Shown piece by piece: positions 61,715-64,000 of a stretch of DNA of 64,000 bases. Position 1 is the stretch's first letter, and each line of letters starts with the position of its first letter. Where the stretch lies: positions 62,001 to 126,000 of the forward strand of contig NZ_FTNT01000012.1 in the NCBI RefSeq assembly GCF_900156495.1. Reading direction: 5' to 3'. A program made the position numbers and the translations under genes. The DNA is from Williamsia sterculiae (GTDB taxonomy: Bacteria > Actinomycetota > Actinomycetes > Mycobacteriales > Mycobacteriaceae). The notes below the pieces were generated by a model. That model searched no databases and had not been told where the DNA came from. It worked only from the letters and a program-made list of their open reading frames with translations.

Positions 61715-62812
61715 TCACGCCCCGCCGCTGGCCAGGAATTCGCTGTAGAACAGCGACAACCCGAGCGCACACGCGATCGCGGTCAGCAACCAGAACCGGA
61801 TGATCACCGTCGTCTCGGCCCAACCACCCAATTCGAAGTGGTGATGGAACGGGGCCATCCGGAACATCCGTCTGCCGGTGGTACGGAAGAAGGCGATCTG
61901 GATGACCACCGAGACGATCTCGGCCACGAACAGCGCGCCGATGACCACGGCCAGCAACTCTGTGCGGGTGGTGATGGACAGCCCGGCCAGCAGCCCGCCG
62001 AGGGCCAGTGAGCCGGTGTCACCCATGAAGATCTTGGCGGGTGCGGCGTTCCACCAGAGAAAGCCCAGGCAGGCTCCGCCACCGGCGACCGCGATGAGGG
62101 CCAGGTCCAGTGGGTCGCGCACGTGGTAGCAACCGGGGCTGATCTCGCCGACACCCTTGGGGCCGCCGACGCAGGCGTTGCGATATTGCCAGAAGGTGAC
62201 CAACACGTAGGAACCCAGCACCATCGCCATCGACCCCGCGGCCAGACCGTCGAGTCCGTCGGTGAAGTTCACCGCGTTGGACCAGGCGGACACGATCAGC
62301 CAGCAGAACACCACGAACGCGATGGAACCCATGCCGATCGCGGTGATGTCGCGGACGTAGGACAGGGTGGCCGACGCCGGTGCGTCACCGGACTGGTTGC
62401 GGAACTGCAGGGCCAGCACCCCGAACAACAGCGCGGCGATCAGCTGACCCACCGACTTGGCGGTCTTGTTCAACCCCAGGTTGCGGTGTTTGCGGATCTT
62501 GATGAAGTCGTCGAGGAATCCGACCCCGGCGAGCACCGTGGACAGACCCAGCACCAGCAGTCCGGAGGCGCTCGGCCCGGGCCCGCCGGTGACCACACCG
62601 ATGAGCTGGGCCACCCAGTAGCCGACCCAGAGCGCGGTGATGATGGCGACGCCGCCCATCGACGGGGTGCCGCGTTTGGTCTGATGACTCTGCGGGCCCT
62701 CGACACGGATCTCCTGACCGAAGCCCTGCCGCGAGAACACCTTGATCAGCACCGGGGTGAGCAGTATCGCCACCGCCAGTGCCACCACACCCGCTACCAG
62801 GATCTGCCGCAC
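61715..62812 (-). CDS. mraY: Phospho-MurNAc-pentapeptide transferase MraY
   Basis: Makes lipid I from UDP-MurNAc-pentapeptide and polyprenyl phosphate; 365 residues with about ten helices. [20 protein letters not shown]-type [46 protein letters not shown] and [12 protein letters not shown] hold the catalytic aspartates and histidines. GTG at 62812 overlaps by one base the stop of the MurF-like gene; GAGGA sits 6 nt before it. Also called murX in mycobacteria. Confidence 0.97.
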
Positions 62813-63348
62813 TACCCGTCCTCATCTCGATGTCCACCCCGATACGCCGTACCCCGCCCCGACGTGGGCCGGGCGTCCGACGTCCCCGGGACATCCAACA
62901 GGCTGCGCAGTCGCTGCCACAACTCGGCCGCGCCGCCCGCGACGTGGACTGTGTCACCCTCCTGCAGTTGCCCGGCGATCAGCGTCAGTGCGGCATCCGC
63001 GTCGGGGACCGACGCGGCCTCGTCGCCCCACGAACCCTCCATCACCGCACCCTGATGCAGGGCCCGCATCGCACGCGTCTCACCCACCGCGACGACCTTG
63101 TCCACCGCGAGGCGCACCGCGAGCCTGCCCACCCCGTCGAAGGCGACCGCCCGATCGTTCTCCGCCTGGCGTCCCTGCGGATCGGCACCGAGGTCGTCGG
63201 ACGTCGCGGCCGCGTCGCCGACGACGAGCCAGATGCGCCGGCGCCCCTCGGCACGAGCGGCGCGGACGACCTCCTGCACCTGCCGACGCACCTCGGCGGC
63301 GTCGACCGGGCCGTCGCCACCGGTGAGGGTGACGTCCGACGGCGTCAC
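62812..63348 (-). CDS. MurF C-terminal-domain-like short protein, no ATP or substrate domains
   Basis: A 178-residue ORF at the place where a full murF (about 500 codons) is expected. It resembles only the MurF C-terminal Rossmann domain: [20 protein letters not shown] (compare a VLGDM-E-LG type strand), [20 protein letters not shown] and [20 protein letters not shown] then an [15 protein letters not shown] helix. The N-terminal substrate domain and the central GKTxT ATP domain are absent, and murE lies immediately upstream, so no missing piece is in another frame here. GTG at 63348 overlaps the murE stop as GTGA. It cannot ligate D-Ala-D-Ala alone; a remnant, an accessory subunit or a misassembly are options. 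Confidence 0.72.
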
Positions 63349-64000
63349 GGTCGTGTTCCCGGCAGGCCGGTGTGGTCACGGGTGGCGTCGTCGATGGCGT
63401 CGGCGAGCACCAGTCGGTCGTCGAAGGGATACTTCACCCCGTCGACTTCCTGTCCGGCCTCGTGACCCTTGCCCGCGACCAGCACGACGTCACCGGGCCG
63501 GGCCCAGTTCACGGCCCGTGTGATCGCCGCGCGGCGGTCACCGATCTCGACCACCGCGGAATCCGGTGGCCGCAGATCGGCCGGGACCTGATAGGCGCCG
63601 GCGAGAACGGCGCGGCGGATTTCGGCGGCCGTCTCGGTGCGCGGGTTGTCGTCGGTGACCACCAGCAGATCGGCGCCACGTGCCCCCACGGCGCCCATGA
63701 TCGGACGTTTCTCGGTGTCCCGGTCGCCACCTGCCCCGACCACCACCGCCAGCCGACCCGTGGTCTGCGCTCGCAAGGTCGCGATCACCGCCTCCAGTGC
63801 CGCGGGCTTGTGTGCGTAGTCGACGACGGCGAGGAACGCCTGCCCACGATCGACGGTCTGCACCCGACCCGGTACCGCCACCGACGCGATCGCCCCGGCG
63901 GCGACCGCGGGATCGACTCCCACCGCATCCGCGAGGCCCACCGCGACGAGCGCGTTGGCGACGTTGAAGCGTCCGGGTAGCGGGACGTCGAGGGCGAACT
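63345..64000 (-). CDS. murE: UDP-MurNAc-tripeptide synthetase MurE, 5' part outside window
   Basis: Adds meso-diaminopimelate to UDP-MurNAc-Ala-Glu. Only the last 218 residues lie in the window and the frame is open to the edge. Visible are PLPGRFNVANALVA (central domain end), the RVQTVDRGQAFLAVVDYAHK segment, VVVGAGGDRDTEKRPIMG and DDNPRTETAAEIRRA; the DNPR motif marks meso-DAP specificity, as expected for this order. AGKGHEAGQEVDGVKYPFDD is the C-terminal signature. The stop overlaps the next start as GTGA. Confidence 0.96.
   Translation of the reverse strand, partial: FALDVPLPGRFNVANALVAVGLADAVGVDPAVAAGAIASVAVPGRVQTVDRGQAFLAVVDYAHKPAALEAVIATLRAQTTGRLAVVVGAGGDRDTEKRPIMGAVGARGADLLVVTDDNPRTETAAEIRRAVLAGAYQVPADLRPPDSAVVEIGDRRAAITRAVNWARPGDVVLVAGKGHEAGQEVDGVKYPFDDRLVLADAIDDATRDHTGLPGTRP

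Follow-up and report, generated by a model that had tools for sequence, protein, structure and literature searches.

The murF position of the dcw cluster in the Gordonia/Williamsia clade is occupied by a stub that is a domain-level pseudoenzyme, apparently left by the displacement of an essential enzyme. The window analyzed here is a 64,000-nucleotide stretch of Williamsia sterculiae DNA (contig NZ_FTNT01000012.1, positions 62,001 to 126,000). Within it, the ORF call, Pfam, NCBIfam, AlphaFold and a structure search identify the minus-strand ORF at 62812–63348 as a stand-alone, non-catalytic MurF C-terminal (third) domain.

A single MurF domain between murE and mraY

The stub ORF has a GTG start, encodes 178 aa and is the sole ORF filling the slot between murE and mraY. 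It overlaps mraY (61715–62812, minus strand) by 1 nt. On the other side lies the C-terminal part of murE (63345–63998, minus strand), a gene that continues beyond the window and whose product is the proposed partner of the stub. The stop codon of murE overlaps the beginning of the stub by 4 nt (63345–63348, minus strand), and translation of the two is probably coupled.

Pfam returned one match, Mur_ligase_C (PF02875; 28.5 bits, gathering score 28.4), and no ATP-domain model was matched. The only NCBIfam match was to MurF (TIGR01143), restricted to profile positions 346–405 of 418, with 13 bits (E 0.038) against the curated cut-off of 288.6 bits for the enzyme. An ATP-binding domain and the catalytic DxYNANP, by which a MurF enzyme would be recognized, are both missing from the stub. 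The AlphaFold model (pLDDT 84.9, pTM 0.79) has as its best structural matches domain 3 of solved MurF structures, namely 4cvm (Z 14.9, 1.9 Å over 114 residues) and 1gg4 (Z 14.7). Identity to the C-terminal part of native murF is 41–56% across 16 family members outside the clade. In fold, descent and operon slot, the stub is therefore alike to domain 3 of MurF, the UDP-MurNAc-tripeptide--D-Ala-D-Ala ligase, and differs from it in standing without the N-terminal and ATP domains. It also differs from a bifunctional MurE–MurF, in which a complete MurE and a complete MurF form one chain, being a separate ORF in the window.

The initial annotation had described a 178-codon ORF resembling the third Mur-ligase domain, with overlaps of 4 nt toward murE and 1 nt toward mraY. 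The profile and structure matches bear out the first point, including the proposed comparison of a predicted structure with MurF domain 3, and the coordinates bear out the second. Three explanations had been offered: a full murF elsewhere with a remnant kept in the operon, an enzyme split into two proteins, or sequence lost in assembly. A genome search for a full-length MurF and a comparison of the interval in relatives had been suggested to decide between them.

The source genome (G000; 20 contigs, 100% complete) contains one full-length MurF. It lies on contig 16, is transcribed divergently from ddl and scores 382 bits against the cut-off of 288.6. Scanning the genome with a murF profile gave seven hits. 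One is this complete MurF, four lie on the contig of the window, where two coincide with murE frames and one each with those of murD and murC, and the last two are on contigs 12 and 11. At the slot itself, none of the seven provides an N-terminal or ATP domain of MurF, in line with the initial annotation. The MurF on contig 16 is complete, with P-loop GSVGKT, DAYNANP and VKGS, and its existence leaves a MurF split over two genes unsupported. Derivation of the stub from this second, imported MurF was also rejected, as the stub query found no second match in the genome at E ≤ 0.001 and matched well the C-terminal parts of the native murF of the family. A profile of 56 domains scored the imported MurF at only E 7e-4.

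The MurF model was then compared with 67 genomes. All 42 from genera g1, g7, g9, g11, g13 and g18, which contain the named Gordonia and Williamsia records, had exactly one match (E ≤ 1e-30), full-length and at a place other than that of the stub. The same pattern was found in 30 further g9 genomes, the two places being compared by coordinates in both sets. A stub match was present in 72/72 surveyed clade genomes with no loss, a count taken from the genus labels in a 401-genome stub survey whose 10 genomes with no match, not itemized there, were judged from their handle numbers to lie outside the clade. Placement between murE and mraY was confirmed in the window and the inspected loci, and placement beside murE in the fetched loci, together a part of the 72. 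Every one of these genomes, several assembled as a single contig, has a stub match and exactly one full-length MurF elsewhere. An assembly gap and a split enzyme are therefore both untenable, and the full murF elsewhere is what was found.

Outside the clade, 23 of the other 25 genera, sampled by one genome each, matched the whole MurF model. The g15 genome (66% complete) had no match and the g44 match was interrupted by an insert. Among 80 named loci, 31 carried the stub (30 titled Gordonia or Williamsia and one Kitasatospora), and in the 49 from other genera a long MurF frame occupied the position ahead of mraY, two of them without murE at a contig end. The expectation of a complete murF in the slot for this bacterial group holds for the other Mycobacteriaceae loci examined and fails in the Gordonia/Williamsia clade, where the stub is the rule.

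Several records deserve separate mention. L051, titled Kitasatospora arboriphila NRRL B-24581, carries a dcw region like that of Williamsia muralis, and the title is probably wrong; L119 (G121) looks like the same record and G121 is filed in the W. muralis genus. L108, a MAG titled Bifidobacterium breve, has a mycobacterial-type dcw region with a full-length murF and is probably misbinned or misnamed. The short frames of G904, G928 and G976, among the matches listed in the class survey, lie at contig ends and were not counted as stubs, and the partial murF match of G043 comes from a normal MurF frame whose domain 3 carries an insert. G268 (genus g45, 100% complete) matched neither the stub nor, at E 1e-30, the MurF model. 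In the large genome G572 (family f18), a lone 120-codon MurF-C-like ORF on contig C40 (L312) lies near a ddl-like gene and lacks the EGSWGxE core; the genome also carries a longer-framed match. Two weak matches in plasmid records, one annotated murF, were uninformative.

Conserved core and linkage to murE

What the stub has lost and kept was assessed in 38 stubs and 37 full-length native domains, hand-picked and with close relatives among them; L051 was dropped as a near-duplicate and L119 was kept though apparently the same record. The motifs DxYNANP and VKxS were found in 0/38 stubs compared with 37/37 full-length domains. EGSWGxE was present in 38/38 stubs and 34/37 full-length domains, counts that lean upward for the named loci because these had been found through the motif itself. 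It was also read by eye in all 17 stub loci that were found by profile and fetched. In the form searched, it occurred in 17 of the order's 23 native rows and in 3/3 f18 rows, and it was missing from the imported MurFs and the outside-class rows. As it is present in most full-length domains, the motif may serve catalysis in full-length MurF.

In the W. sterculiae stub, the motif reads EGSWGDEA (63016–63039, minus strand). It belongs to a retained core of residues 69–112 (GRLAVRL...VG..R...[16 protein letters not shown]; 63013–63144, minus strand), which is the most constrained part, while the flanks vary in length and sequence. In 15 close pairs, hand-chosen for closeness, pN/pS was 0.038 for the core versus 0.348 for the rest of the stub. 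The dN/dS of the stub was 0.09–0.29 in the 12 closest pairs and that of the murE C-terminal part 0.05–0.14. Summed dN/dS values, from the pairs kept of 464 and with many near saturation, were 0.46 for the stub versus 0.24 for the murE C-terminal part and 0.14 for mraY. Judged by these ratios, the core is under strong purifying selection. The whole stub is looser than its neighbors but the core is very tight, which is unlike a decaying piece.

The stub is closely tied to murE. A possible start within a 4-nt overlap with the murE stop was found in 25 of 26 separate named loci, and the distance from stub to mraY across the same 26 loci varied between 0 and 157 nt. MurE and the stub form a single ORF of 685–734 aa, with these two parts only, in 14 of the 17 Gordonia loci that were fetched. 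These 17 comprised the 15 with the longest frames in the profile survey and two with short frames; in the remaining 35 of the 52 Gordonia genomes, separateness of the stub was judged by frame length alone (≤380 codons). The single ORF was also seen in four named Gordonia records (L090, L092, L103 and L105), at least two of which are the same genomes as fetched fused loci. Seven fused genomes are present in the MurF tree and form one group (100/98), the pattern expected from a single fusion event. Folded in silico as a single chain, the natural fusion of G. asplenii gave pLDDT 90.9 and pTM 0.81. The MurE part of this model matched M. tuberculosis MurE with Z 48.3, and the structure-search rows cover that part only.

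Origin of the ddl–murF pair and a second case

The divergent ddl–murF pair was found in 20/20 clade genomes inspected and in 15/17 related loci from outside the class, one of the two exceptions starting at a contig end. These outside-class rows may be Acidimicrobiia or may span more than one class. The G000 MurF is 45–66% identical to the 17 outside-class rows (at least 51% in 12) and 42–48% identical to 23 native rows of its own order; a second aligner gave 50–51% for two members of its family. In the MurF tree, the 20 clade rows fall together with the 17 from families f43, f58, f84 and f88. Support is 100/99 for the branch that divides this group from the 23 native order rows, three f18 rows and seven further outside-class rows; the f88 row L174 is weakly placed (73/53). 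In the ddl tree, a 100/100 branch sets the 18 Mycobacteriaceae rows apart, and their union with the clade was rejected by the AU test (p 0.008).

Since both MurF and ddl of the clade group with outside-class families that share the divergent pair, the two genes were probably imported together, as a unit, from outside the class. We infer the direction of import from the nesting in the trees. A single ddl was found in 10 of 11 clade genomes searched, G010 having a second, weaker one, and the native ddl has probably also been lost, at least in most clade genomes. One outside-class genome, G785 (L171), has a ddl and a MurF that nest within the Gordonia/Williamsia clade in both trees, and it has a second ddl. 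This perhaps reflects a return transfer, and it clouds the exact donor.

A similar stub occurs in another family of the same order. In all three sampled genomes of genus g291, family f9 (G828, G835 and G871), the interval from murE to mraY contains a stub of 120–126 aa that retains the core and has lost the same motifs; in G828 it shares 4 nt with each of these two neighbors. No MurF above cut-off was found in the three genomes. They and G853 (genus g281), all 84–91% complete, carry a diverged MurF-like ligase of about 500 aa beside a ddl-like gene (L287, L288, L289 and L291 in G828, G871, G835 and G853). This ligase has a P-loop, DDTYNSNP and a hydrophobic N-terminal stretch and, by inference, may replace MurF function in g291. 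Five other f9 genera have MurF above cut-off, and in G853 a dcw murF adjoins murE (260 bits, under cut-off) in addition to the MurF-like pair. Because the other genera keep MurF and G853 resembles an intermediate, the g291 stub apparently arose independently by the simplest count. In family f3, L290 (G818) has the MurF-like ligase only (158 bits) and no stub match, and its native murF may be fully lost.

Proposed role of the retained domain

That a horizontally acquired gene can displace a native one is a known concept, and the apparent takeover by a foreign ddl–murF pair is an instance alike. It differs in that one domain of the displaced gene has stayed at its site in every surveyed clade genome, with something similar in a second family. 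Among the matches listed in open-licence papers, none describes the stub, and those linking Gordonia to murF concern other topics.

As proposed, a Gordonia/Williamsia ancestor would have acquired the divergent ddl–murF pair from outside its class, as genomic context and the trees suggest, and the imported MurF, now the sole full-length one, would have taken over catalysis. The native dcw murF has lost its substrate and ATP domains and the catalytic motifs of domain 3. The remainder of domain 3 persists as a protein, its gene start overlapping murE, and in some Gordonia it is fused to MurE. The stub is proposed to act as a non-catalytic docking subunit that holds MurE in the precursor-making assembly via the face bearing the [15 protein letters not shown] region; native MurF would once have made this contact, and the foreign MurF would lack it. 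With catalysis handed over, one face conserved and the gene start locked or fused to murE, a docking role best explains the stub. We lean, with modest confidence, toward this account as a whole, in which the imported pair displaces native catalysis and the stub is retained as a putative docking subunit of MurE.

Published work bears on such contacts. In an M-PFC assay, the M. tuberculosis Mur synthetases interact with FtsZ, FtsW, FtsQ, Wag31 and the SepF orthologue, and DdlA and the NamH homologue interact with MurF only (PMC3605390). The joint travel of ddl and murF fits the DdlA–MurF contact. Nevertheless, the same study saw no interaction of the Mur synthetases among themselves, which counts against a direct contact of native MurF with MurE or a simple dimer. 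Among bifunctional MurE–MurF fusions (PDB 8f5d), the Bordetella protein is a single chain and binds MurG (PMC6420597). Some Gordonia are alike in having MurE joined to MurF material; they differ in that only the dead third domain is joined and the catalytic MurF is separate and foreign.

Doubtful, though the foremost of the alternatives, is a ligand sensor: the stub would keep the amino-acid-substrate side and drop the ATP side, bind D-Ala-D-Ala or the pentapeptide precursor, and tune MurE, in the fusion directly. Loss of DxYNANP and VKxS with retention of the core agrees with this, as does fusion to MurE, and the core follows a strand that, by its topology, presumably matches the amino-acid-binding loop of MurE. 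Nevertheless, the imported MurF does without EGSWGxE even though D-Ala-D-Ala is its expected ligand by family assignment, so that the motif seems unnecessary for that ligand.

It is improbable, and already disfavored, that the ORF is kept mainly to pass ribosomes from murE to mraY, the protein itself being of little matter. The tight overlaps in the source genome and G828 and the 4-nt murE overlap in nearly all separate loci would suit this role, but the variable stub–mraY gap indicates that tight mraY coupling is not maintained. Moreover, the pN/pS of the core points to selection on the protein, and the MurE fusions retain the domain. Similarly small is the chance that the stub forms a heteromer with the imported full-length MurF, as an allosteric partner, and not with MurE. 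The two co-occur in all 72 genomes, yet their genes lie at separate places, the gene that the stub overlaps or is fused to is murE, and the co-occurring MurF-like enzyme of g291 is quite different and diverged. A functionless, slowly decaying remnant, to which the lost catalytic motifs and variable flanks might point, is very improbable given the absence of loss in 72 genomes, the dN/dS of the closest pairs, the constrained core and the similar stub in g291. The word 'remnant' in the initial annotation is apt for a piece left in its operon slot and undersells one for which strong purifying selection, joining to MurE in some genomes and a parallel in a second family all point to a retained function.

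Returning to docking, a more general form of the proposal, for and against which we see the case as evenly balanced, is that the third domain of MurF in Actinomycetes has a second, catalysis-independent role. It would dock MurE and the precursor assembly via the [13 protein letters not shown] face and could not be lost after catalysis was outsourced; at least two lineages would have exposed this role, one of them then fusing the domain to MurE.

MurF is an essential and much-studied drug target that is regarded as an enzyme only. Its kept and conserved dead tail suggests, from comparative sequence evidence, a second job. The clade offers a natural separation of function, in which MurF catalysis has seemingly moved to a foreign enzyme and the dead tail is selected beside MurE or fused to it. 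Naming murF from operon position is misleading in the Gordonia/Williamsia clade, and the old question of whether the Mur ligases work in a physical complex becomes directly testable there.
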